34,273 nt of DNA from an uncultured Verrucomicrobiales bacterium. GTDB lineage: Bacteria; Verrucomicrobiota; Verrucomicrobiia; Verrucomicrobiales; Akkermansiaceae. The DNA lies in assembly GCA_913060685.1 (NCBI GenBank), contig CAJXVQ010000009.1:1-34273 (forward strand), written 5' to 3'. Positions 8,796 through 33,823 of the stretch are shown here, one piece after another. Position numbers and translations under genes: made by a program. Numbering within the stretch: position 1 is the stretch's first letter; each line of letters begins with the position of its first letter. The notes beneath the pieces were generated by a model that saw only the letters and a program-made list of their open reading frames with translations, was not told the origin of the DNA and made no database searches.

Positions 8796-11700
8796 CTAAC
8801 CAAGCCACGGTCCCAGCTCACGCTGCAGTGCCACATTGAGCGTGGCATGGAATTCCTCGGGAAGCTCAATCGTGGCACGCTTACCGGCCCCATTTTGAAT
8901 GTGGAGAAGCACTGGCGTCTTACCAGGATACTCGGCGAGGATACTTTTGATCTTCTGAAGATCCTCCGGCTTATTTCGTCCGGTCCAAAGCGTCAGCTCA
9001 ACAAAACCATTCTTCTTCCCACGTTTCGCCTTCAACTCACGAATTTGCGACCCCATGAGCCTCCGCTGTTCGGTGCGATCATCAACCGTCACTTGCGCTT
9101 TAAACTGGACCACCTTCCCTGCCATCATCAAGCCAGCGTCGCGAGCCGGAAGATAGCTCTCGCTCCAACAAACCATTTCACGATCTCCGGTGAAATCTTG
9201 AATCACGACCACTCCAAAGGGCTTCCCGGTCTTGGTCATCTTGTGCTCCACACTTCGAACCATTCCCGCAAAGGGAAAACGGGCGCGCTTGTCACTCAGG
9301 TCGACCTCATCCAACAAGCCCAATTTAATGAAGCGGTCCGAATCAACCACCCCGCGAAACTTATCGAGCGGATGGCCGGTGACATAGAATCCCAGCAGTT
9401 CCTTTTCATGCTCGAGTCGCTCATCTTTCGGCCACTCTTCCGGAGCCGGTGAGTCATCGGTCACCGGCGGTGGTGCCGCAAATTCCATGGCATCGAAAAG
9501 TCCGCCCTGCCCCGAAGCCCGATCCTTTTGCGCGCTACTCGCACTCGCAACCACTTTCTCAACTCGATCCGCCATCCCGGCCCGCGTTTCCCCGGTCCAG
9601 TCCATCGCGCCCGCTTTGATCAGGTTCTCCAAAATCCGCTTGTTGATGACCTTGGAATCAAGTCGATCACAGAAGTCATCGAGTGATTCGTATTTGCCGT
9701 TCTCCTCCCGCTCCTTAATCGCCATCGCCATCGCAGCCGCCCCGACATTCTTAATCGCGGACAAGCCGTACCGAATCCCCTGCTTCCCTCCGAGGATCAC
9801 CTCAGGAGCGAACCTCAGCATCGATTCATTCAAGCTCGGAGGAAGAATCTCAAACCCCATCCGAAAGCACTCGTTCACGAAGATGCTGATCTTATCTGTA
9901 TTGGTGATTTCGTTCGACAGCAGGGCCGCCATGAACTCGATGGGGTGATTGGCCTTCAGGAAGCCCGTCCAATATGAGATGAAACCATAGCATGCAGAGT
10001 GGGATTTGTTGAAACCGTATCCCGCAAAACCGGCAATCTTGTCGAAGATCAGGTTGGCATTGCGTTCATCGATCTGGTTCGTCTTAAACGCTCCCTCCAC
10101 AAAAATCACCCGCTGCTTCGCCATCTCGGAGGGTTTCTTCTTACCCATCGCCCGACGGAGAATATCCGCACCTCCGAGGGTATATCCGGCCAGCATCTTC
10201 GCGGCATTCTGGACCTGCTCCTGATAAATCATGACACCATAGGTATCGCCGCAAATCGTCTCAAGCAAGGGGTGCTCATAGACGGGCTTTTTGCGGCCCT
10301 CCTTCACCTCGATCATCTGGTCGATATACTGCATCGCACCCGGGCGATAAAGGGCCAGGAGGTCAATGATGTCCTCAATCTTATTAATCCCGTACTTCCG
10401 GCAAGTCTCGACCATGCCGCCACTCTCCAACTGGAAGACGCCCATTGTCTCGCCCGCATTGAGCATCTTGAAGGTCGGAGCATCTTCCAACGAGATTTCA
10501 TAGATATCAAATTCCGGCGTGTGCAGATGAATCGAGTCAATGGCCTCCTGAATCACCGTCATGTTCTTGAGGCCCAGGAAGTCCATCTTCAAGAGCCCCA
10601 CATCCGTGATCGCACTCATGTCGTATTGAGTCACGACCTCGCCCTCGTTTCCGCGGGTCAGAGGCACGTGCTCATCCAGCGGTCTGTCGCCAATCACGAC
10701 CCCCGCCGCGTGGACACCCACGTTCCGGCTCATCCCCTCCAGCTTCAAACAATATTCCCAAAGTTCCTGATAAGTCGCACTGCTCTCAATGACCTCCCGC
10801 AAGTCCGCCTTTTCCTCATACTCCTTGGCTAATTTCACCCCGGGTTTGGCCTCGATCATCTTGGAGATTCGATCCGCCTCCCCGTAGGCGATCCCCATGA
10901 CACGGGCGACATCACGAATGACCGACTTGGCCCCCATCGTGCCGTAGGTGATGATGTGGGAGACATTGCGCTCGCCATATTTTTGGCGGACATACTCGAT
11001 CACCTCCGGCCGCCGCGTTTGGCAAAAATCGATATCAACATCGGGAGGTGACACCCGCTCCGGATTTAGGAATCGCTCGAACAGGAGACCAAAACGCATC
11101 GGACAAACATCAGTAATCCCCATGGTGTATGCCACCAACGAACCCGCCGCCGAGCCACGGCCCGGCCCCACCGGAATCTTCTGCTCCTTCGCCCAGTTGA
11201 TGAAGTCCGCTGTAATGAGGAAGTACGAAGCAAACTTAAGTTGAATAATAATTCCCATCTCATATTCGAGACGGTCGATGAGTTCCTTCTCCTGAGCCTT
11301 CTCCGCGCCATAACGGATCTCCAACCCCTTGAAACAAAGCTCGCGGAAGTGGTCGTTTGGCGTCGAACCGTCATCAGGCTTGTATTCCGGGTATTTCTCG
11401 GACGAAGTCGGATCAAGAATGAACTCAACATTGCACCGCTCCGCAATTTCCAAGGTGGTGTCGCATGCCCCCGGGTAATCGGCAAAAAGAGCACGCATTT
11501 CCTCGGCGGTCTTGAAGTAAACTTCCGGCGAGTAGCGCTTACGGTTCTCATCAATGACCAGTCGGCCAATCCCGATACAGATCATGACATCGTGCGCCTC
11601 GTGATCCTCACGATTCAGAAAGTGAACATCGTTCGCCGCCACCAGCTTGAGATCCATCTTCTCAGCATACTTAACCAGCGTGTCGCGAATTTTGGCCTGC

Positions 11701-12254
11701 TGTTCCATCCCGTGATTGTGGATTTCAAGGTAGAGATTCTCTTTCCCGTAAATATCCAGCAACTCCTGCGCAGTCTCCCAAGCCTGGTCCTCCTGGTCTT
11801 GCAAAATCCACTCGTTGATCGGCCCGGAAAGACATCCCGACAGACAAATAATGCCCTCGGAATGCTCCCGTAAAATCTCGCGATCCACCCGGGGGTTCCC
11901 ATGCCACATGCCTTCCAGGTGCCCTTTCGAAACGAGCTTCTGCAAGTTCACCCACCCCACGTTATTCTCAGCCAGCAAAGTCAGGTGACAGTCCCGCTTG
12001 CGACCCGCGATTTCCTCGCGCTTCTCGATTGATTCCGGAGCAAGATAAATCTCACACCCCATGATCGGCTTCACTCCGGCCTCTTTGCACGCCTTGTAAA
12101 AACTAATGGTGCCATAGAGATTGCCATGGTCCGTCATTGCCACCGCCGGCATCCCCAACTCCTTGGCCCGGGCGGCGACATCCTTGGTGCGACAGGACCC
12201 ATCCAGAGTGGAATACTCGGTATGAAGGTGGAGGTGAACAAACGAGTCGGACAT
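8796..12254 (-). CDS. dnaE: DNA polymerase III subunit alpha
   Basis: Replicative polymerase of the chromosome. Translation from the ATG at 12252-12254 gives MSDSFVHLHLHTEYSTLDG, the exact start of the PHP domain, so this start is preferred over in-frame ATGs 6 and 21 bases upstream. The protein has about 1152 aa, close to the 1160 of E. coli DnaE. The PHP domain (about 1-270) keeps the HLHLH and TDHGNLYG metal-site motifs. The polymerase core shows PGRGSAAGS near 364-372, the catalytic block PDVDIDF with Asp407 and Asp409, and LLKMDFLGLK with the third acidic residue. The finger region (HPLLETICGDTYGVMIYQEQ), a helix-hairpin region and a C-terminal OB fold (FAGMVRSVEHKMTKTGKPFG) follow. No proofreading exonuclease domain is fused. 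It is monocistronic and convergent with glyQS. Confidence 0.97.
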   Translation of the reverse strand: MSDSFVHLHLHTEYSTLDGSCRTKDVAARAKELGMPAVAMTDHGNLYGTISFYKACKEAGVKPIMGCEIYLAPESIEKREEIAGRKRDCHLTLLAENNVGWVNLQKLVSKGHLEGMWHGNPRVDREILREHSEGIICLSGCLSGPINEWILQDQEDQAWETAQELLDIYGKENLYLEIHNHGMEQQAKIRDTLVKYAEKMDLKLVAANDVHFLNREDHEAHDVMICIGIGRLVIDENRKRYSPEVYFKTAEEMRALFADYPGACDTTLEIAERCNVEFILDPTSSEKYPEYKPDDGSTPNDHFRELCFKGLEIRYGAEKAQEKELIDRLEYEMGIIIQLKFASYFLITADFINWAKEQKIPVGPGRGSAAGSLVAYTMGITDVCPMRFGLLFERFLNPERVSPPDVDIDFCQTRRPEVIEYVRQKYGERNVSHIITYGTMGAKSVIRDVARVMGIAYGEADRISKMIEAKPGVKLAKEYEEKADLREVIESSATYQELWEYCLKLEGMSRNVGVHAAGVVIGDRPLDEHVPLTRGNEGEVVTQYDMSAITDVGLLKMDFLGLKNMTVIQEAIDSIHLHTPEFDIYEISLEDAPTFKMLNAGETMGVFQLESGGMVETCRKYGINKIEDIIDLLALYRPGAMQYIDQMIEVKEGRKKPVYEHPLLETICGDTYGVMIYQEQVQNAAKMLAGYTLGGADILRRAMGKKKPSEMAKQRVIFVEGAFKTNQIDERNANLIFDKIAGFAGYGFNKSHSACYGFISYWTGFLKANHPIEFMAALLSNEITNTDKISIFVNECFRMGFEILPPSLNESMLRFAPEVILGGKQGIRYGLSAIKNVGAAAMAMAIKEREENGKYESLDDFCDRLDSKVINKRILENLIKAGAMDWTGETRAGMADRVEKVVASASSAQKDRASGQGGLFDAMEFAAPPPVTDDSPAPEEWPKDERLEHEKELLGFYVTGHPLDKFRGVVDSDRFIKLGLLDEVDLSDKRARFPFAGMVRSVEHKMTKTGKPFGVVVIQDFTGDREMVCWSESYLPARDAGLMMAGKVVQFKAQVTVDDRTEQRRLMGSQIRELKAKRGKKNGFVELTLWTGRNKPEDLQKIKSILAEYPGKTPVLLHIQNGAGKRATIELPEEFHATLNVALQRELGPWLG

Positions 12255-24992: not shown

Positions 24993-25000
24993 ATGATAAA

Positions 25001-26407
25001 ATGAGCCGATTCTCCAACACGCCCGATCGTCGCAGCATCCTGCGCTCATTCGTTGCCGGGTCGACGCTGATGCCAGGGATCCTCCGGCAGTTGCAAGCGG
25101 AGGAAGGAGACGGCCTCGATCCACTCGCCCCGAAACCGCCGCACTTTCCGGCCAAGGCGAAGAACGTGATCTTCCTCTTCATGACGGGCGGTGTCTCACA
25201 CGTCGACACCTTCGATCCGAAGCCGAAACTCAGGGCAGATGTCGGCAAGGAAGTGAAACTGGACCACCCCGAAATCAAAGATCGCGCCGGCTACGAGCGG
25301 ATTTTTTTGAAAGCGCCACAGTGGGATTTTTCGCCGCAGGGCAAGTGCGGCACCGAGGTGAGCTCGCTGTTCCCGCATGTCGGTGGATGCATGGACGAGA
25401 TCGCGCTGATCCGATCGATGCACACCGATCACTCGAACCATTACAACGCCACTCTCGGGATGCACACCGGTTCGTTTGCGTTCGCACGACCGAGCCTCGG
25501 GGCGTGGGTCAGCTACGGACTGGGGAGCGCGAATCAGAACCTCCCTTCATTTGTCACCATCGCCCCGGCGCAGACCTATGCCGGGACGCAAGTGTACGCC
25601 AGCGACTTCCTGCCGGGCGCGCATCAGGGGACACTGGTGGTCCCGGGGGCGGAACCAATCGCGAACGTGAAGCCGCGGATCGCGACAAGCAAGCAGCGCA
25701 TTGAATTGGCGGCACTGCAGAAGCTCAATCGCCAACACCTCGCCGCGCGCGGCGGACACGCCCTTTCCGAGGCCCGGATCAAAAGCTTCGAGACCGCCTT
25801 TGGGATGCAGATGGCAGCGCCGGAGGCGTTCGACTTTTCTGCGGAGAGCGACGCGACCCACGCCCTCTACGGATTGGAACGTGGCAGCACGAAGGGCTTC
25901 GCCTGGCAATGTCTCGCCGCCCGACGCCTGGTCGAACGCGGGGTGCGCTTTGTGGAACTGATCGATACCGGTTCGTCCGGGAACTGGGACTCGCACGGAA
26001 ATATGAAGGACCACGAGCGTCTCGCGAAAAATGTCGACCACCCGATTGCAGGCTTGCTGAAGGATCTCAAATCACTTGGCATGCTTGAGGACACGCTCGT
26101 CGTCTGGACCACCGAGTTCGGGCGCACGCCGTTCAACAACAAAGCCGACGCACTGGGGCGCGAGCACCACAACTGGGCATTCAGTTCGTGGATGGCCGGA
26201 GCCGGGGTGAAGCCGGGGATCGTCCACGGCGCCACCGACGAATACGGGATAAAGACGGAAGTCGATCCGGTGCATGTCCACGACTTCCATGCGACGATCC
26301 TCCACCTGATGGGACTCGATCACGAAAAGCTCACCTACCGCCACAGCGGCCGCGATTTCCGGCTCACGGATGTGTTTGGGAATGTGGTCACGGAGATCCT
26401 TTCCTGA
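25001..26407 (+). CDS. Tat-exported DUF1501 protein
   Basis: The ATG at 25001 gives MSRFSNTPDRRSILRSFVAG with the twin-arginine motif RRSILR at 10-15. A TTG at 24989 in the same frame overlaps the previous stop but adds only four residues. About 468 aa. DUF1501 belongs to the alkaline-phosphatase/sulfatase-like fold: VIFLFMTGGVSHVDTFDPKP near the start, SLFPHVGGCMDEIALIRSMH, RLVERGVRFVELIDTG, VVWTTEFGRTP and GREHHNWAFSSWMAGAGVKPG follow the family order. No enzyme activity has been assigned to the family as far as I know. Export folded through Tat suggests a metal or cofactor centre. It forms a two-gene unit with the DUF1549/1553 gene. Confidence 0.9.
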   Translation: MSRFSNTPDRRSILRSFVAGSTLMPGILRQLQAEEGDGLDPLAPKPPHFPAKAKNVIFLFMTGGVSHVDTFDPKPKLRADVGKEVKLDHPEIKDRAGYERIFLKAPQWDFSPQGKCGTEVSSLFPHVGGCMDEIALIRSMHTDHSNHYNATLGMHTGSFAFARPSLGAWVSYGLGSANQNLPSFVTIAPAQTYAGTQVYASDFLPGAHQGTLVVPGAEPIANVKPRIATSKQRIELAALQKLNRQHLAARGGHALSEARIKSFETAFGMQMAAPEAFDFSAESDATHALYGLERGSTKGFAWQCLAARRLVERGVRFVELIDTGSSGNWDSHGNMKDHERLAKNVDHPIAGLLKDLKSLGMLEDTLVVWTTEFGRTPFNNKADALGREHHNWAFSSWMAGAGVKPGIVHGATDEYGIKTEVDPVHVHDFHATILHLMGLDHEKLTYRHSGRDFRLTDVFGNVVTEILS

Positions 26408-26534
26408 GTGAGGACGACGAACCTCCCGTCCGGGAAGGCAAGCCCAGCTCGACCGCGATCTTATCTTCATAACCGAAACCCGCCGGTCGCCAGATTTCCC
26501 TCGCTCTGCCGTCACTTTTCCTCGAAGTTCCATC

Positions 26535-27863
26535 ATGCCCGAGACCCAGACCTCCCGCCGTCAGTTCCTCAAGACCGCCGCCGGCGCCCCTTTGATCTTC
26601 AGCAATCTCCGCGCCGCACCCTCCGCGAACGGAAAGCTCAACCACGCCGCCGTTGGCGTCGATGGCAAGGGCTGGAGCGACCTCACGAGCATCGCCTCCC
26701 ATGCCAACGTTAACGTCACCGCGATCTGCGACGTCGATACCGCGCGCATGGCTAAAGCCGCCGCAAAATTCCCCGACGCCCGCAGATACCAGGATTGGCG
26801 CGAAATGCTCGAGAAAGAGGGAGACAAGATCGACTCCGTGCATGTCGCCACCCCTGACAACATGCACGCCCCGATTTCCATCGAGGCGATGGAGCGAGGC
26901 AAGCACGTCTATTGCGAGAAGCCGCTGGCGCACGAAGTCGCCGAGACCCGCGCCATGGTCGAAGCCGCCGCCAAATCCGGTGTCGTCACGCAAATGGGAA
27001 ATCAAATTCAGTCGACCATCGAATACCGTTCCGCCGTCGCGCTCATCCAGCAGGGCGTGATCGGTAAGATTAAAGAGGTGCACGCCTGGGCCGGTGCCTC
27101 ATTCCCCGGCAAAGGTCGACCCAAGGGAGCCGATCCCGTGCCTGAAACTCTCGACTGGGACAAGTGGCTCGGCGTCGCACGCGTGCGCCCCTATAAAAAC
27201 GGCATCTATCATCCCTTCCAGTGGCGCGCTTGGCAGGATTTTGGCACCGGCCCGTTGGGAGATTTTATGTGCCACATCATGGATTCCCCATTCAAGGCAT
27301 TGGAACTGACGGCACCAACCAGTATCAAAGCCACCAGCGTCCCTGACGATTGGGCGGCAAACGAGGCCGCCTTCACCGAGAATTGGCCCGCGTGGGCAAC
27401 CTACGAATATCTTTATCCCGGTACGAAATGGACCGTCGGCAACACCATTAAAACTTTCTGGTATGACGGCGGCAAACAACCCCCGCGCGAAATCTTCGGG
27501 TTCGCCGACGACAAGCGGAACCCACCCGGCGGCGGCAGCCTCTTCATCGGCGAGGGCGGCAACCTCTTGCTTCCCCACGTTGGCGGACCACAGCTTTTGT
27601 CCAACTCGAGGAACAAAGACCTCAAACTCCCGAAGCTCAAAAGCCGCAGCCACTACCACAGCTTCGTCGATGCCTGTCTCGGCCGTGGCGCGACCACCAG
27701 CCACTTCGCCTTTGCCGGCCCCCTCACCGAAGCCACCCTCCTCGGCAACATCGCCAACCGCCACCACGGCAAGGAGATCAAGTGGGACACCGCCGCACTC
27801 AAGATCACCAACAACAACGACGCCAACGGGCTTGTGAAGCGCGACTGGCGGAAGTTCGCGTAA
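26535..27863 (+). CDS. Tat-exported Gfo/Idh/MocA-family oxidoreductase
   Basis: A 442-aa protein starting MPETQTSRRQFLKTAAGAPL, with twin-arginine motif RRQFLK at 8-13. The N-terminal Rossmann domain (about 36-150) includes VTAICDVD, SVHVATPDNMHAP and the family motif CEKPLA with Glu128-Lys129-Pro130. The C-terminal domain (about 155-430) binds substrate: WAGASFPGKGRPKG, ETLDWDKWLG, HPFQWRAWQDFGTGPLGDFMCHIMD and RSHYHSFVDACLGRG. Members use NAD(P) to oxidise or reduce sugars. Tat-exported versions, numerous in Planctomycetota and Verrucomicrobiota, are exported folded with their cofactor and resemble glucose-fructose oxidoreductase. It follows the DUF1501 gene by 127 bases and may be a separate transcription unit. 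Confidence 0.92.
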   Translation: MPETQTSRRQFLKTAAGAPLIFSNLRAAPSANGKLNHAAVGVDGKGWSDLTSIASHANVNVTAICDVDTARMAKAAAKFPDARRYQDWREMLEKEGDKIDSVHVATPDNMHAPISIEAMERGKHVYCEKPLAHEVAETRAMVEAAAKSGVVTQMGNQIQSTIEYRSAVALIQQGVIGKIKEVHAWAGASFPGKGRPKGADPVPETLDWDKWLGVARVRPYKNGIYHPFQWRAWQDFGTGPLGDFMCHIMDSPFKALELTAPTSIKATSVPDDWAANEAAFTENWPAWATYEYLYPGTKWTVGNTIKTFWYDGGKQPPREIFGFADDKRNPPGGGSLFIGEGGNLLLPHVGGPQLLSNSRNKDLKLPKLKSRSHYHSFVDACLGRGATTSHFAFAGPLTEATLLGNIANRHHGKEIKWDTAALKITNNNDANGLVKRDWRKFA

Positions 27864-28198
27864 GCGACGCACTTCTATCAACGCCTTTCCCACCTGATAA
27901 GAAACGAGTGGATAAAGCCTGGAAGATTTCGGAGTGGTGGCGATGGCATCAATGAGATCGCATCGATCCTCACGAAGATCGATGTGGCTACCTGCTTGGA
28001 TTCGACGACTCCGCTCTTTGAGCAATCTTCGATTGGCACCAAAAAGGATCTCAAAGTCATCTCAAGCTTTCCGGTCTCGGAGTTCGCGAGCGCGCGAACA
28101 AGACTACGCAACTATCCTTTACCCGAAGATCATTGGCTCGCAGAGGCGACTGACGGGGAGTTGTCCCTCTCTGGTCAGCGAGCCCTGCCGGGCGCTAA
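27864..28198. other. 335-base gap without a supported gene
   Basis: Between the Gfo/Idh/MocA stop and the left tRNA-derived repeat. One plus-strand frame stays open through this stretch and on into the terminator and tRNA fragment, but it resembles no family I know, and its continuation through structural RNA sequence argues against it. A decayed gene is possible. Confidence 0.4.
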
Positions 28199-28205
28199 AA
28201 AAATT

Positions 28206-28233
28206 AAGGGGTTACGATTTCTCGTAACCCCTT
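28206..28233 (-). terminator. Terminator hairpin attached to the tRNA-Gly fragment
   Basis: AAGGGGTTACGA (28206-28217) pairs perfectly with TCGTAACCCCTT (28222-28233) around a 4-base loop. On the minus strand a T-run (complement of the A-run ending at 28203) follows, so it would terminate tRNA transcription reading leftward. Confidence 0.8.
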
Positions 28234-28242
28234 GTAAAAGAA

Positions 28243-28287
28243 TGGAGCGGGTGAAGAGATTCGAACTCTCGACATCGACCTTGGCAA
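28243..28287 (-). pseudogene. tRNA-Gly(GCC) 3'-half fragment
   Basis: Forty-five bases identical to the 3' part of the tRNA-Gly at 30440-30514: encoded CCA, discriminator T, 3' acceptor strand, T arm, variable loop, 3' anticodon stem and anticodon loop. The 5' half is replaced by unrelated sequence from 28288, so it cannot fold as a tRNA. Confidence 0.92.
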
Positions 28288-28382
28288 AGTGACCAAAAAC
28301 AATGCAATCAAAGGGTTTTGGAGGCCAATCCTACCAAAATTTGCCGATTTCCAGAAATAAGTGCCATTTTAGCTGCACTCAC

Positions 28383-28402
28383 AATCGCACTTTGACAGCA
28401 CC
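28383..28402 (+). repeat. Subterminal repeat near the left end of the island
   Basis: AATCGCACTTTGACAGCACC matches AACCGCACTTTAACTGCACC at 30360-30379 in 17 of 20 bases, same orientation. Related words lie close by (AGCTGCACTC ending at 28380; GGTGCATTTTGAGTGCG starting at 28427). Repeated sites near both ends would fit arm-type integrase or excisionase binding sites. The rest of 28288-28580 shows no gene before fic. Confidence 0.5.
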
Positions 28403-28551
28403 TTATTTGGTCTCTCACTGAGAACAGGTGCATTTTGAGTGCGACAAATGCTACCTTGCCTTGAGACCCTAAAGCATAAGACCATTACAACGGTGTAAAA
28501 TCTTCTTCATTCGCCAATTCTCGAAATATTTGCGCCTCATCATTAATCGGG

Positions 28552-28579
28552 TATAATCAGGTAGATTTACGGTAAATCT
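28552..28579 (+). promoter_or_regulatory. -10 box and palindromic operator in front of fic
   Basis: TATAAT at 28552-28557 is a perfect -10 hexamer; the -35 region is poor. AGATTTAC (28563-28570) and GTAAATCT (28572-28579) form a perfect 8-bp palindrome with a one-base centre, ending one base before the fic ATG. The predicted transcription start falls inside it, so the message would be almost leaderless and the palindrome would cover both transcription start and translation start. Confidence 0.6.
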
Positions 28580-28580
28580 C

Positions 28581-29627
28581 ATGAATTCCACGATTACGAT
28601 TACTCCCGAAATATTGAAACTCATCGCGCAAATCGACGAGTTTAAAGGGCGTTGGGAGGCCTTAGGAGCGATTTCAAGAGATCGTCTCACTCAGCTTAAA
28701 AAAACGGCAACAATCGAGAGTATCGCCTCTTCAACTCGTATTGAAGGCGTTACGCTGACAGATCAAGAGGTGGAATCGCTCTTGACCAACCTTGAGATTC
28801 AGGAATTTCGAACTCGGGATGAGCAAGAAGTAGCAAGCTACGCCCAAGCAATGGAAATGGTTTTTGAGTCTTGGGAGCATCTGCAAGTCAGTGAGAATCA
28901 TATTCAGCAACTTCACGCTACACTTCTTAAGTTTTCAACCAAAGACACCCGACATCGAGGTGGATATAAAACCCTCGATAACCATGTCGTCGCCTTTGAT
29001 GCGGAGGGAAAGCAAGTCGGGATCGTTTTCGCAACTACGTCACCCTTCGACACTCCAGCCTACATGCGGGAACTTATCGAATGGTATCACTCAGAGGAAG
29101 CGGTTCACTCGATGCATCCCTTGCTCAGAACAGCTCAGTTTATCGTTCGATTCTTAGCCATTCATCCCTTCCAGGATGGAAATGGGAGGCTTTCGCGGAT
29201 TCTGACCACCTTACTCCTTCTCCAATCAGGATATGACTATGTTCCATATGCTTCCATAGAGCGGATCGTAGAGGACAATAAAGATGGCTACTATCGCGCC
29301 CTCCGCACGACGCAGGCAAGCTTTCAAGACCCTGTCATCAATTGGGAACCATGGCTCTTGTTCTTTCTCCGCACCCTCTGGAAGCAATGTAAAGTGCTAC
29401 GCGGCAAAGTCGAAGACCATCGTGTCATGCAGAATCAAAATCTTACTCCTCTGGCTGTCAAAATCCTCACTCTTTTCAAAGACCACTCACAATTGAGTAA
29501 TCGCGAAATCGTCGGCCTTACCGATTCAAATTCGAATACGATCAAGGCCACCCTTTCAAAGCTCGTGCAGGAACAGCTCCTTCGAATTGAAGGAAGGGGA
29601 AGATCGACCACTTACCGGCTTCAATAA
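28581..29627 (+). CDS. Fic-domain AMP-transferase with N-terminal inhibitory helix and C-terminal winged helix
   Basis: A 348-aa Fic protein. The Fic motif is complete: HPFQDGNGRLSR at 195-206, with catalytic His195 and the GNGR phosphate-binding loop, so transfer of AMP (or another NMP) from NTP to a hydroxyl side chain is expected. The inhibitory motif [S/T]xxxE[G/N] is present as STRIEG at 51-56 (Glu55, which competes with ATP gamma-phosphate binding), placing it among Fic proteins with an N-terminal inhibitory helix. The flap segment is HVVAFDAEGKQVGIVF. Residues about 285-348 look like a winged helix-turn-helix (LSNREIVGLTDSNSNTIKATLSKLVQEQLL), so it may bind DNA and control its own promoter. 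It is followed after 18 bases by a TOTE-primase gene and lies within the tRNA-Gly island. Target unknown. Confidence 0.92.
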   Translation: MNSTITITPEILKLIAQIDEFKGRWEALGAISRDRLTQLKKTATIESIASSTRIEGVTLTDQEVESLLTNLEIQEFRTRDEQEVASYAQAMEMVFESWEHLQVSENHIQQLHATLLKFSTKDTRHRGGYKTLDNHVVAFDAEGKQVGIVFATTSPFDTPAYMRELIEWYHSEEAVHSMHPLLRTAQFIVRFLAIHPFQDGNGRLSRILTTLLLLQSGYDYVPYASIERIVEDNKDGYYRALRTTQASFQDPVINWEPWLLFFLRTLWKQCKVLRGKVEDHRVMQNQNLTPLAVKILTLFKDHSQLSNREIVGLTDSNSNTIKATLSKLVQEQLLRIEGRGRSTTYRLQ

Positions 29628-29645
29628 GCATCATCTTGGATTTAA

Positions 29646-30404
29646 ATGAGCGAAGACCTCCATCAGCGAATTCGTGAATTGGAAGAAGAATGCCAAAAAC
29701 TACGAGCAGAAAACACTCAGCTCCGAGAAAGTCAGAAGCCGTCCCCTCCAATAATCAACCAGAACAAAAAAGCGAATGGCATCGACGCTTACTTATCACC
29801 AGAGGACAAAATAAAACTCTTTCGCAACCTGTTCCGAGGCCGTGAGGATGTCTATCCCATCAGATGGCAGAATCACGAAGGGAAGTCTGGTTATTCACCA
29901 GCCTTTGATCGGTCTAAAGGATTTGTCGCGAAAGAAGATCGTGTATTTCTTCCGCTAAGCGATCAGGTCATTCGTGATCATTTGAGTGGAAAAATCATTA
30001 CCGGAGTCTACGCGATTATTCCCGATGACTTGTGTTGGTTCTTGGCCGCTGACTTTGACAAAAAAACTTGGAAGGAAGATTGCCGAGCTTTTTTAACTTC
30101 CTGTGAGGCTCTTGAAATCCCAGCAGCCCTTGAATGCTCTCGATCAGGAAACGGAGGTCATATCTGGATTTTCTTTCAGGAACCAATCACCGCAAACCTT
30201 GCTCGACGGCTCGGCGCCGTTCTCTTAACCCACACGATGCAATCTTTTTGTCGTAGAGAAAAGCTTGCCCTTGTGCCAATTCCTCGACGGCAAACACGAC
30301 GATTTTTCAAAAGAAAAACACAACCCAAAATGGGTCGTGCGCTGATAATAACTGCACCAAACCGCACTTTAACTGCACCAGAGCCATATCAGGGCAAAAA
30401 TTAA
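29646..30404 (+). pseudogene. TOTE-type archaeo-eukaryotic primase domain protein, 3' truncated
   Basis: A 252-aa frame. It opens with a coiled coil (RIRELEEECQKLRAENTQLR, 8-27), then the AEP domain as found in TOTE conflict systems: LFRNLFRGREDVYPIRW, VIRDHLSGKIITGVYAIIPDD, motif I WFLAADFDKKTWKED (Asp136, Asp138) and motif II ALECSRSGNGGHIWIFF (His172). Family resemblance stops near residue 198, and the tail is basic, low-complexity sequence running into the right repeat. The third catalytic motif and the helicase and nuclease domains that normally follow are absent, as are the zinc-binding cysteines I would expect around residue 90. A functioning primase or helicase is therefore unlikely. 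It is probably co-transcribed with fic. A short accessory form is conceivable but less likely than a remnant. Confidence 0.72.
30350..30380 (+). repeat. Tandem AACTGCACCA sites near the right end of the island
   Basis: AACTGCACCA occurs at 30350-30359 and 30371-30380, 21 bases (two helical turns) apart. The stretch between them completes the 20-base match to the left-end site at 28383-28402. Candidate protein-binding sites of the mobile element. Confidence 0.5.
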
Positions 30405-30484
30405 GGGCTTACGATTCCTCGTAAGCCCTTGAAAAAGAATGGAGCGGGTGAAGAGATTCGAACTCTCGACATCGACCTTGGCAA
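30396..30484. repeat. Right direct repeat: tRNA-Gly 3' half plus terminator (attR-like)
   Basis: Partner of 28199-28287 (85 of 89 identical). It includes the terminator of the intact tRNA gene and the tRNA from its CCA end up to the anticodon loop. Confidence 0.93.
30403..30430 (-). terminator. Terminator of tRNA-Gly
   Basis: AAGGGCTTACGA (30403-30414) pairs perfectly with TCGTAAGCCCTT (30419-30430), 4-base loop. On the minus strand the complement of AAAAATT (30396-30402) supplies the T-run, 9 bases past the tRNA CCA. Confidence 0.85.
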
Positions 30485-30514
30485 GGTCGCGCTCTACCAC
30501 TGAGCTACACCCGC
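30440..30514 (-). tRNA. tRNA-Gly(GCC)
   Basis: Read on the minus strand: acceptor GCGGGTG pairs with CACCCGC, the D arm is GCTC...GAGC, the anticodon stem CGACC/GGTCG encloses loop TTGCCAA with anticodon GCC, the T arm is GAGAG-TTCGAAT-CTCTT, the discriminator is T and CCA is encoded. Seventy-five bases with CCA. All stems pair, with one G-U at the base of the T stem. It decodes GGC/GGU glycine codons. Its 3' end abuts the island, as expected for an integration site kept functional. Confidence 0.97.
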
Positions 30515-30864
30515 ATTGCTAATCCCAAAAGGGCTTCGCGTGCGCGCACTCTTTGCCATCGTGAAAGACCTCCGACAAGAGTTTTTTCACAAGAATTTTC
30601 AAGAGCCTATTTTTGAACGATCCTTTACCGATCTTAAAATTCATCTTCGTCCGGCTCCAACACCCGTATGTGCACCGTTTCACGTTTTTTATGAGATGGG
30701 ATCCGCAAAATGGTAACTTCGGGATATTTTTTATCCTTTTCGCGGTTCGTTTGAAAAGGATTTGTGGAACTGACTTCCCTCCCCCGCCCCGTAGACATTT
30801 TTCCTTTTGAAGCGCGAGAAGGTAACGGAATCTCCGCTCCTCCTCAAGTGAAGGGGAACTTACC
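30515..30864 (+). promoter_or_regulatory. 350-base nrdR leader with a candidate promoter and two exclusive hairpins
   Basis: There is no gene in this stretch. TTGAAC (30613-30618) and TAAAAT (30635-30640) with a 16-bp spacer form a moderate promoter about 220 bases before nrdR. Downstream, GGATA (30722-30726) can pair with TATCC (30732-30736), while ATCCTTTT (30733-30740) can instead pair with AAAAGGAT (30754-30761). The two hairpins share bases and cannot form together. An AAGGGGA ribosome-binding site precedes the nrdR ATG. Confidence 0.4.
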
Positions 30865-31353
30865 ATGCGTTGTATTCAGTGCGGAAACCATCAGGACAAG
30901 GTCATCGACTCGCGTTCGTCAAAAGACGGAACGTCGATTCGCCGTCGTCGAGAGTGCCTGAATTGCGGATCTCGCTTCACCACCTACGAGCAGGTCGAGC
31001 GCACTGAACTCCGCGTCATCAAACGCGATGGCACCCGGGAGGCGATCAACCGCGAGAAGCTCTTCCGCGGCCTCGTGAAAGCCTGCGAGAAGCGGAAAGT
31101 CTCCATGGATGTCATTGGACGATCCGTCGATGAAATCCTCAGCGAGCTTCACAAGGACCACCACAACGAGGTCCCCTCGGCTAGCATCGGCGCGAAGGTC
31201 ATGGACAAACTCCACAACATCGATCCCGTCGCCTACGTCCGCTATGTCTCGGTTTACCGTCAGTTTGATGACGTGGGCGAATTTATCCGCGAAATCCAGG
31301 CTCTGGAAAACCGCTCCCGTCAGGACGCCATGCAACGCAAGCTCTTCAAATAA
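30865..31353 (+). CDS. nrdR: Transcriptional repressor NrdR
   Basis: A 162-aa zinc-finger/ATP-cone repressor of ribonucleotide reductase genes, which senses dATP/ATP. The zinc ribbon uses Cys3, Cys6, Cys31 and Cys34 (MRCIQCGNHQDKVIDSR and RRECLNCGSRFTTYE). The ATP cone spans about 49-139, beginning VIKRDGTREAINREKLFRGL and ending DPVAYVRYVSVYRQF. Length and motifs match the family closely. No nrd operon and no obvious NrdR box are in the window. It is followed after 5 bases by an unrecognised gene and then by a HIT protein, apparently one operon. Confidence 0.97.
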   Translation: MRCIQCGNHQDKVIDSRSSKDGTSIRRRRECLNCGSRFTTYEQVERTELRVIKRDGTREAINREKLFRGLVKACEKRKVSMDVIGRSVDEILSELHKDHHNEVPSASIGAKVMDKLHNIDPVAYVRYVSVYRQFDDVGEFIREIQALENRSRQDAMQRKLFK

Positions 31354-31358
31354 TCACC

Positions 31359-31925
31359 ATGATTTGTTTCGCAGAAAATCTCCCCGCTCTTCAAGTCGGC
31401 CGCCAACAAGTTGTCGGCTACAAGACTGATTGGATTGAGGAATCCCTCAACCGGGCCGCCACCGCTTGTGGTCGGACAGATTGCCCTTTCCTCAACGACA
31501 TCCGAAACGGCATCCAGCATTTTCTTGAGAAACGCTGCTCGCTCAAAGTCTTGCCAATCGAAGACCTCTACGAACGCATGCGAGGTATGCTTCGTAAAAT
31601 CGGTTGCCACGAAATAGCCGCTCACCTCACCCCTCTCGCCCCACCGGTCGCGGTGTCCTTGATCGGCCCGGCCCGTAAAGCCGGCAACGGATACGAACTG
31701 GTTTTCTTCCAGCTCTTAAAAGATGAAATTGAGCTTCTCCACGATTCCGGTGCCGAGTCCATTCGCTTTTGTGATATCGACGAAAGCGTGAAGCTCTTGC
31801 GGAGCAGCGATACCACCGGGGAACCCGGCCGCCAGCTTAAGATCGAAATCACGACCTTCCTGGAAAGCTACCATCGCCAGATCCCCGCACCCCATCGCGA
31901 ACTTCATCTTACCCTCGATCCATGA
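31359..31925 (+). CDS. Unrecognised conserved-looking protein, possibly ATP-cone-like
   Basis: A 188-aa soluble protein that I cannot assign. The N-terminal half (about 15-90) contains WIEESLNRAATACGRTDCPF, a stretch ending FLEKRCSLKVLPIEDLYER, and MRGMLRKIGCHEIAAHL. Its helical spacing and the pattern ending in IEDLYERMRGML recall ATP-cone domains such as that in the preceding nrdR, but without the usual basic VxKRDG start. The C-terminal half is mixed alpha/beta and ends in LHLTLDP. No signal peptide or membrane segment. It begins 5 bases after nrdR and overlaps the HIT gene by 4 bases (ATGA), so it is translationally coupled to both. The coding sense is well supported by this packing and by GC use like its neighbours. 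A nucleotide-related role is inference. Confidence 0.8.
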   Translation: MICFAENLPALQVGRQQVVGYKTDWIEESLNRAATACGRTDCPFLNDIRNGIQHFLEKRCSLKVLPIEDLYERMRGMLRKIGCHEIAAHLTPLAPPVAVSLIGPARKAGNGYELVFFQLLKDEIELLHDSGAESIRFCDIDESVKLLRSSDTTGEPGRQLKIEITTFLESYHRQIPAPHRELHLTLDP

Positions 31926-32272
31926 GCCACGAACCCACTCTTTTTGAGAAAATCATCGCCCGCGAAATCCCCGCCGAGATCGTCTTCGAGGATGACCTCT
32001 GCCTCTGCTTCCGCGATATCGCGCCCCAAGCTCCGGTTCACCTTCTCCTCATTCCCAAGAAGCCAATCACCCGAATCGCCCTCGCCGGGCTTGATGACCA
32101 GGCCCTCCTTGGCCACATGTTGCTCAAGGTCGGAGAAATCGCGCGTCAGGAAGGCTACGCCGAAGAGGGTTTCCGGGTCATCATTAACAACGGCCCCCAC
32201 GGGGGAGAAGCCGTTCCGCATCTTCATCTCCACCTCCTTGCTGGCCGCCAACTCCGATGGCCTCCGGGCTAG
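31922..32272 (+). CDS. hinT: HIT-family nucleotide-binding hydrolase (HinT-like)
   Basis: A 116-aa histidine-triad protein. It has the triad VPHLHLHLL (His100, His102, His104), the upstream His/Gly loop NNGPHGGEA, and an N-terminal TLFEKIIAREIPAEIVFEDD identical in pattern to HinT proteins, followed by HLLLIPKKPI. HinT enzymes cleave AMP-lysine-type phosphoramidates and related adenylates. The usual GGQ before the triad is GGE here, a mild change. The start overlaps the preceding stop. Co-occurrence with a Fic AMP-transferase nearby is probably coincidental. Confidence 0.93.
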   Translation: MSHEPTLFEKIIAREIPAEIVFEDDLCLCFRDIAPQAPVHLLLIPKKPITRIALAGLDDQALLGHMLLKVGEIARQEGYAEEGFRVIINNGPHGGEAVPHLHLHLLAGRQLRWPPG

Positions 32273-32419
32273 CAACCTGAAGGCCACCACCATGCTACGG
32301 TGAAGACAGAAACACCGTGCAATACCATAGTAAGTAACCCGTAGAATTTGCTTTTGGGATTGAGCGCTTGAGGGCGTCGTTGAAGGGATCGGAGGGGGGA
32401 GATTCGCTCCGCTTGTAAT

Positions 32420-33823
32420 CTAGAACCCGGTTATTCTGAACCGGGACAACAGCTGGTCATCATCCGAAGCAAGATATCCCAAAGAGCCGTCATCGAGGAA
32501 CACGACACCCTGAACTTTTGGGTGGGTCGCCCTGATTTCGCCATCGACCACAATCGAAACACCTTTCTTAGTCCCGATAAGATAGCAATAACGAGCACTA
32601 TCAGGGCTAAAGTTGAATCCATCGACCGCGATAAATTCTCCGGCAGGGCCAAATTTCCCGTCGACAACCCAACGGGAGGGTCCCCTCTTCCCCACAGGGT
32701 AGGCGAGCCGCTTCGAATCCGGGCTAAACCGGGGTGCCTCTATCCTATGGCCTGGTGGTAAGTTCACTGACACTGCTTTTTCGTTCAGCCAAAGAGCCAT
32801 CTTGGCATCGCGAATCCCAACAAAGGCGAGCTGCTTTCCGGCCGGGCTGAAGGTGAGAGTGCCGTCGACAAGATCGTTAATCGCGAACGGTAGAGAGGTC
32901 TTTCTTACAATGGAGCGTTTCCCGTCCGGATACGCCATGTAGGCGAAGTCGGACCCGTCCGGGGAAAAGACGAAGTCGATGCCGAGATTTTGGTAGGCCG
33001 GTTCCGGCTTTCCATTGACGACAATACGCGTGAGAGTGCCATTAAACTGACTGTAGGCAAAATGCTGGCTGTCGGCGCTGAAGTCCAAGCCGAACTTGGG
33101 AGGTTGGGCCGCCTTGCCCCGGGCGTTGATCAGCGCACCGAAGCCCGACGAAATACTCATCGAGACTCCGACGCTCCAACCGCCAGGTTTACCATCTTGC
33201 ACAATCCGCATCTTCCTTTCAGCTTTCAACCACTCGACATAAACGAGCCGCTTCGAATCAGGACTAAAGGCGGGGGCGGCATCATAGGGGATCGGCTTTC
33301 CAGACCCCTTGGCGGGGACGGCTTTTCCATCCACGACAAGGATGCTGCCATTCGCGACATAGGCGTGGCGTTTGCCATCTTCACTGAAGGCAAATGAGGT
33401 GGGGGTAAGCTTCTGAAAGGAGGGACCCTCGACTCCATTGATGACCCAGCGCCACTTGTTGTCCTTTTGGGCACAATACGCGACCGATTTTCCGTTTGCG
33501 CTGAAAAGCGGGGTCTCTTCCCTGATTTTGGAGTAGCGTGGTCCCTCCTTCCCGTCGACCCTCACGGAAAAGCCGTCGTGCAAGGCACCACTCAGGGCGG
33601 CGGCCCGACAACCATTCCGGGTAAAGGAATAAGCCACCGAGATAATTCCCGCAGCGGGGGGATTTGCGTCCACGACCGTCTTCTTTACCTCCGCTCCCTC
33701 CCAATTTTCGGCGCTGGCTGTAGACGCTGTCGAACAGCACACTGTAACGGCAAACAAAAGGCGACCCAATGACCGGATAGATGAGGGGGACTTAACTATA
33801 AATTTATTATATGATATTTTCAT
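32420..33823 (-). CDS. Secreted WD40/TolB-like beta-propeller protein
   Basis: The ATG at 33821-33823 is preferred: it gives MKISYNKFIVKSPSSIRSLG followed by LLFAVTVCCSTASTASA, a signal peptide, on a 467-aa protein. The frame continues upstream without a better start. About eight repeats of the form FSPDSKRLAY are visible (FSANGKSVAY, FSEDGKRHAY, FSPDSKRLVY, FSADSQHFAY, FSPDGSDFAY, FSPAGKQLAF, FSPDSKRLAY, FSPDSARYCY). They alternate with a second repeat, WVVDGK-GP or IVVNGKPEP. This gives a TolB/WD40-like propeller. No enzyme motif is seen. Upstream sequence is AT-rich and could hold its promoter. Confidence 0.85.
   Translation of the reverse strand: MKISYNKFIVKSPSSIRSLGRLLFAVTVCCSTASTASAENWEGAEVKKTVVDANPPAAGIISVAYSFTRNGCRAAALSGALHDGFSVRVDGKEGPRYSKIREETPLFSANGKSVAYCAQKDNKWRWVINGVEGPSFQKLTPTSFAFSEDGKRHAYVANGSILVVDGKAVPAKGSGKPIPYDAAPAFSPDSKRLVYVEWLKAERKMRIVQDGKPGGWSVGVSMSISSGFGALINARGKAAQPPKFGLDFSADSQHFAYSQFNGTLTRIVVNGKPEPAYQNLGIDFVFSPDGSDFAYMAYPDGKRSIVRKTSLPFAINDLVDGTLTFSPAGKQLAFVGIRDAKMALWLNEKAVSVNLPPGHRIEAPRFSPDSKRLAYPVGKRGPSRWVVDGKFGPAGEFIAVDGFNFSPDSARYCYLIGTKKGVSIVVDGEIRATHPKVQGVVFLDDGSLGYLASDDDQLLSRFRITGF

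Follow-up and report, generated by a model that had tools for sequence, protein, structure and literature searches.

The closest described relatives of the locus presented here are cis-mobilizable elements (CIMEs), which keep attL and attR, have lost their integration and transfer genes and occupy a site of successive arrivals (PMC5704250). Comparable features are known from the tRNA islands identified by Islander-type methods (PMC4383910), from the ssrA islands of Dehalococcoides (PMC3146451) and from AEP-bearing elements in tRNA genes (PMC5862659). The window, i.e. the whole stretch of 34,273 nucleotides analysed here (contig CAJXVQ010000009.1 of the uncultured Verrucomicrobiales bacterium assembly GCA_913060685.1), contains a 2.2-kb segment between an intact tRNA-Gly(GCC) gene and a displaced copy of the 3' half of this gene. 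We regard this segment, with a probability of about 0.72, as a CIME-like remnant left by deletions in an integrative element with tRNA-Gly(GCC) as its attB.

As in a CIME, attL and attR are both kept at the sequence level, with cores and candidate arms, the integration and transfer genes are gone and the site appears to have received successive arrivals. The segment differs from a CIME in its length of only 2.2 kb with one intact gene, in that its descent from a conjugative or mobilizable element is hypothetical and in that no neighbouring element was seen on the contig. With the Islander-type islands it shares the intact tRNA, the displaced 3' fragment on the correct side and in the correct orientation, and the anticodon-centred subsite. 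However, it has no integrase and would fail the integrase filter of that method, the 2-kb length limit of which it just exceeds with approximately 2.2 kb. The Dehalococcoides islands resemble it insofar as one RNA gene is occupied repeatedly and some islands have no integration module, whereas they reside in ssrA and depend on a serine recombinase, in contrast to the tRNA-Gly gene and the lambda-like att layout found here. A primase-bearing element at a tRNA gene is also what the AEP-bearing elements represent, but these belong to the PrimPol-PV1 families, while the present primase is an AEP-TOTE fragment that probably does not work. This kind of element is already known (PMC5704250, PMC3146451, PMC4383910), and the present case is unusually small and clean. 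A literature search returned nothing on point for Fic with an AEP primase-helicase, for TOTE or for mini-islands. The segment illustrates to what extent a tRNA island may be reduced in size with both recombination sites still readable, and it provides explicit arm-site candidates for the presumed integrase.

Repeat, probable crossover sites and candidate arms

The original prediction, made from the sequence alone, had described an 89-base repeat of the tRNA-Gly 3' half, with an identity edge at the anticodon loop and the 3' end of the tRNA directed towards the island, and the alignment together with the ARAGORN call reproduced each of these points. Positions 28199-28287 and 30396-30484 form a direct repeat with an offset of 2197, in which 85 of 89 positions are identical (four differences, longest identical run 52 bases); over the extended span, to 28290 and 30487, 87 of 92 positions agree. 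The repeat comprises the tRNA-Gly(GCC) 3' half from the anticodon loop onwards and a terminator, with 44 bp common to both copies beyond the tRNA. Its edge is the 7-nt anticodon loop TTGCCAA, further outwards followed by one mismatch and then two matching bases, and the anticodon loop belongs to the known crossover subsites (PMC4383910). ARAGORN calls a single tRNA in the window, the 3' end of which faces the interval, and the 3' fragment lies on the 3' side of this intact tRNA in the same orientation, as expected for a tRNA island. The features of the segment ends are the following.

28281..30484, no strand: mini-island between both probable crossover sites (repeat alignment)
30440..30514, minus strand: intact tRNA-Gly(GCC) (ARAGORN)
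30396..30484, minus strand: near att block (attL side), consisting of the tRNA 3' half from the anticodon loop, terminator and AATTTTT (repeat alignment)
28199..28287, minus strand: far att block (attR side), consisting of the displaced tRNA 3' half, terminator and AATTTTT (repeat alignment; junction also in genome G026)
30478..30484, minus strand: probable 7-bp crossover TTGCCAA (anticodon loop), near copy (identity starts here)
28281..28287, minus strand: probable 7-bp crossover TTGCCAA, far copy (identity starts here)
30403..30430, minus strand: terminator hairpin, near copy (fold)
28206..28233, minus strand: terminator hairpin, far copy, with compensatory change (fold)
30350..30378, minus strand: candidate P' arm, three GTGC-type repeats with 10-11 bp spacing (pattern counts)
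28371..28401, minus strand: candidate P arm, three GTGC-type repeats with 11-12 bp spacing (pattern counts)

The 44-nt tails of the near and the far copy each consist of a 12-bp hairpin and a subsequent AATTTTT (fold z -5.8 and -6.6, respectively), and the two hairpins differ by a compensatory pair of differences. Since the copies are not identical, a plain assembly duplication could be ruled out as the source of the repeat. With the far copy as query, three places were found in the own genome (6.93 Mb, 840 contigs): besides the query's own position, these were the near copy (E 3.8e-35) and, on contig C40, a decayed piece of 38 bp. When the entire interval was searched, two more short matches emerged, one of 50 bp with 84% identity to the tRNA part (C22) and one of 27 bp to the part with the Fic motif (C2). 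Next to the far repeat, at 28166-28195, there is a sequence resembling repetitive extragenic palindromes (REP-like), GGTCAGCGAGCCCTGCCGGGCGC, which is present on contig C315 of G026, too.

Just inside each end of the island, three GTGC repeats are located on the tRNA strand. One set (30378-30350) is spaced by 10-11 bp and lies approximately 60 bp past the tRNA 3' end, the other one (28401-28371) is spaced by 11-12 bp and lies approximately 80-115 bp before the far crossover; as both are on the same strand, their orientation is direct. In the P' arm of phage lambda, tandem arm sites follow each other at about one helical turn, and the GTGC triples resemble arm sites of a lambda-type integrase, for which we consider them candidates. 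Nowhere else in the window, whichever strand is read, do GTGC triples spaced by 10-12 bp occur (mean 0.017 and maximum 1 in 60 window shuffles), and no 4-mer other than GTGC gives such a triple in each of the two 200-bp end segments. A triple of any 4-mer was shared by none of 3000 shuffled end-segment pairs, and 5000 draws that paired real segments outside the interval, with pairs less than 250 bp apart skipped, likewise gave 0. The gapped arm pattern, which was built from the two inner-end sites themselves, matches only these two sites in the own genome; among the other 259 genomes of the family it matches in two, at simple tandem repeats. A stricter arm pattern gave no match in genome_contigs, a collection from which the own genome may be missing.

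Gene content and its relatives

Within the interior there are only two open reading frames (ORFs) of at least 100 aa, the length covered by the family scan, and these encode a Fic protein and a primase fragment. The two genes and the conserved neighbour on the tRNA side are located as follows.

28581..29627, plus strand: intact Fic-domain gene, 348 aa, HPFQDGNGRLSR motif, C-terminal part resembling a helix-turn-helix (HTH) (PF02661, PADLOC SoFic)
29646..30404, plus strand: truncated AEP-TOTE primase ORF (PF22548; breakpoint relative to the copy in genome G010)
30865..31353, plus strand: nrdR, conserved tRNA-side neighbour outside the island (PF22811, PF03477; synteny)

The Fic protein matches PF02661 (3.6e-18) and the PADLOC model SoFic (1.6e-50), and its HTH-like C-terminal part matches a phage regulator family (0.00015). 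Nearer to the start than the HPFQDGNGRLSR motif it contains SSTRIEG, which we take to be a motif of the inhibitory-helix type. The 252-aa ORF matches AEP-TOTE at positions 1-157 of 230. Because its identity with the G010 copy stops at 30244, and the remainder of the ORF crosses unrelated DNA and the candidate P' arm, the primase gene is truncated; an open TOTE frame, present in G026, has 943 residues. The fragment, which takes up about a quarter of the segment, probably no longer works. The original prediction of an AT-richer interior also held, since the GC content of 500-bp windows amounts to 0.43-0.49 within 28250-30249 compared to 0.57-0.65 (windows 25000-27999) and 0.53-0.59 (30750-33749) in the flanks, although it is also low beside the tRNA (0.46-0.49) and at the end of the window (0.46-0.50). 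The 2.2-kb segment is probably foreign DNA.

In G010, another species, fic and primase genes lie 220 bp from the same tRNA and share 94.4% identity with those of the window over 1725 bp; the nrdR flanks of the two genomes are 73.5% identical over 1421 bp. The fic genes differ at 73 positions, 58 of them third codon positions, which results in 14 amino-acid changes, and the primase parts show 12 differences with 6 amino-acid changes. The G010 primase resembles the G026 protein up to about residue 282 and contains one in-frame TGA ahead of this point; for the G034 primase the resemblance ends near residue 514. Adjacent fic-primase pairs were found three times among 117 genomes of the family, in all cases not more than 0.5 kb from a tRNA 3' end, twice at tRNA-Gly and once (G034) at tRNA-Ser.

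The direct succession of fic and an AEP-TOTE primase gene was observed in these three family genomes (window 28581-30244; L034; L089) and additionally in Chitinophaga sp. CF418 (L223), and the TOTE gene is cut short in 3/3 family genomes with such a pair. Relatives of the Fic protein itself are widespread, the closest named one among the matches listed stemming from a Prosthecobacter metagenome-assembled genome (64%). Among the 107 Fic-relative loci considered (the best 80 of 545 confirmed genome loci and 27 viral loci), many of which are cut by contig ends, one has a TOTE match.

The tRNA-Gly/nrdR locus in related genomes

The far-junction pattern (up to three mismatches) was found in two of 260 family genomes, the own one and G026 (contig C240). 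The likeness of the G026 junction continues for 11 bp into the island-side DNA (9/11 identical). For the P'-like stretch past the G026 block, one alignment gave 18/27 identical positions and the 49-nt test gave 30, which is within chance (396 random comparisons, 95% point 31, highest value 34). A junction of tandem islands on this contig is thus only a possibility. The att-like block there (L129, 5751-5839) is situated between two gene clusters that were read as efflux systems from their ORFs. The decayed piece on contig C40 of the own genome (L051, G000:C40, approximately 9390-9470) is a relic of the far junction and overlaps the start of an ORF that, from reading it, appears dehydrogenase-like.

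The 44-nt tail shows 1-6 differences among the near and far copies of the window, G026:C240 and G012, compared to 10-34 differences to 17 further tRNA-Gly tails of the genus. Among the latter, those of G004 (10 differences) and of G003, G006 and G021 (12 each) come closest, and all four have a related hairpin. In G012 also the next 49 nt resemble those of the window, with 35 identical positions, while the highest of the 396 random values was 34. The terminator block possibly moves along with the elements, or is perhaps partly native to some species. Successive occupations of the tRNA-Gly site by this element family are likely, although less well supported than the remnant interpretation itself.

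The 45-nt tRNA 3' half (up to three mismatches) was detected in 15 of 27 congeneric genomes, once in 12 and twice in three. G012 was dropped from the two-copy genomes: the ends of its contigs C112 and C184 share a single tRNA by overlap and are taken as one locus, which leaves the own genome and G026. The nrdR side forms a single syntenic group in all 20 genomes with at least 900 bp of sequence, in contrast to seven groups among the 18 genomes with at least 900 bp on the island side. This count covers genomes with a fetched locus, an exact 5' anchor and at least 900 bp on the side in question, which excludes G011, G013 and G026 on the island side and G012 on the nrdR side, where only the short contig was used. 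The tRNA-Gly/nrdR locus is a hotspot of turnover in the genus.

Origin of the segment and other inserts at tRNA genes

The segment very likely goes back to a site-specific integration event at tRNA-Gly. The tRNA-targeted, att-bounded and integrase-less island of the original prediction is supported by the phased inner repeats, the recurrent far junction, the G010 cargo and the synteny breakpoint. The absence of an integrase, one of the usual marks of a tRNA island, was confirmed, as there is no PF00589 match on the window contig (C9). Within the 27 genomes, PF00589 was likewise absent from C9, C40, G010:C19, G026:C240 and C507, and G012:C184 and C112; both searches were limited to PF00589, and serine integrases were not searched. 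With only fic and the primase fragment in the interior, we infer that integration and transfer genes were once present and then lost. The original prediction had proposed either a deletion remnant or a satellite mobilised in trans. Of these, the remnant is favoured in view of the cut primase gene and of an interior that holds no other ORFs of at least 100 aa than the two described. In this scenario a lambda-type tyrosine integrase would have exchanged strands across TTGCCAA, aided by the arm repeats. The incoming DNA would have brought a 3' half and a terminator, leaving the tRNA whole and pushing the earlier 3' half to 28199, and the integrase and most of the cargo would have been lost afterwards. 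Since both cores and both arms are still recognisable, the segment might be excised by a related integrase in trans or be carried in tandem with a newcomer. If the ends are active, the segment would be a mobile element of very small size with a possible defence gene as its cargo.

Several observations weigh against this remnant interpretation. The PF00589 search did not reveal an integrase for this att family, so that we can only infer one. Empty sites or longer integrase-bearing islands in relatives, which the original prediction had named as a check, were not encountered: across the 27 genomes, the far flank (27865-28198) had no counterpart apart from itself and a 30-bp REP-like repeat in G026, and no longer island with a PF00589 integrase was found at this tRNA in the sequence examined. 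The oxidoreductase protein encoded beyond the far flank has matches in 8 of the 27 genomes at E <= 1e-120 (own genome included), none of which showed an empty site, and in G026 it lies elsewhere. The left flank is 88-91% identical to G026:C379 up to 27887 and then diverges, and the tRNA contig of G026 ends at the tRNA 3' end. In the 12 of 15 matching congeneric genomes where the tRNA 3' half is single, a link between it and the far flank of the window was not detected. The arm motif had caught attention prior to its testing, which the any-4-mer comparison answers in part only, and a reversed control of the arm pattern matched in two of 260 genomes (9 times and once). The P'-like stretch in G026 is weak and inside the chance range, and the hairpins of G003, G004, G006 and G021 suggest that the block may be partly native to the genus. 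Finally, the cargo common to G010 (28520-30244) reaches neither arm, and the 20 kb read from that genome showed no far repeat, so that a transfer into G010 via these att sites is hypothetical. A parental integrative and conjugative or integrative and mobilizable element, sought by junction and arm patterns in the 260 family genomes, viral_contigs and genome_contigs, was not found, the far-junction pattern having 0 exact matches in viral_contigs and occurring only in the own genome and G026 within the family.

A non-autonomous satellite, i.e. a minimal fic cassette between complete att sites that is regularly moved by an integrase encoded elsewhere, is an unlikely alternative to the remnant. 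It would account for the recognisable cores and arms, for an open fic frame with changes mainly at third positions and for the recurrence of an almost unchanged cargo at this tRNA in G010. Other contigs of the own genome indeed contain 12 matches to PF00589, 10 of which exceed the family cut-off, and some of the matches are probably XerC/D. However, a mobile unit of this kind hardly explains why a primase fragment occupies such a large part of the segment, why the G010 copy has no att ends and why the arm pattern has no second locus in the own genome. The lack of far-junction matches in viral_contigs and of stricter arm matches in genome_contigs, as well as the restriction of the arm pattern to simple tandem repeats in the two other family genomes, point in the same direction. 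The bolder version is a minimal trans-mobilised defence cassette of approximately 2.2 kb, in which a working fic between complete attL and attR would be moved between species at tRNA-Gly through integrases from other loci. A portable block of tRNA 3' half and terminator would re-equip the tRNA at each move; we regard this version as quite unlikely.

That the two copies are nearly identical and share 44 bp beyond the tRNA would also be expected if ordinary recombination had duplicated a segment of the tRNA locus and foreign genes had been inserted between the copies later on. Such a duplication is improbable, as the copy begins precisely at the anticodon loop, the far junction recurs with similar upstream DNA in G026 and the phased repeats at both ends would be left unexplained. 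Some insertion sequences bear multiple short terminal repeats at their ends, and we considered whether the inner repeats are the ends of a transposon, for example IS21-like, that landed beside a tRNA fragment. IS21-like ends were dropped because the two repeat sets are direct instead of inverted and the arm pattern is not repeated elsewhere in the own genome. As the interior ORFs of at least 100 aa, to which the family scan was confined, are only fic and the primase fragment, a transposon origin appears very improbable.

Other small inserts were observed behind tRNA genes of the family. An 18-nt repeat of the tRNA end (up to two mismatches) starts 117-160 bp downstream in five tRNA-Gly contexts and one tRNA-Ser context. 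Examples are L034 2615-2749 (G010), L036 5045-5199 in tRNA orientation (G020) and, at the tRNA-Ser, L089 at approximately 11585-11763 (G034). An inverted copy of the T-arm is present in the inserts of G010 and G020, and several inserts have a purine-rich body, the pattern of which was found in 4/27 genomes, always at tRNA-Gly. Considering 52 unique tRNA contexts, tRNA arrays included, a downstream copy was detected in nine and, as a control, an upstream copy in four.

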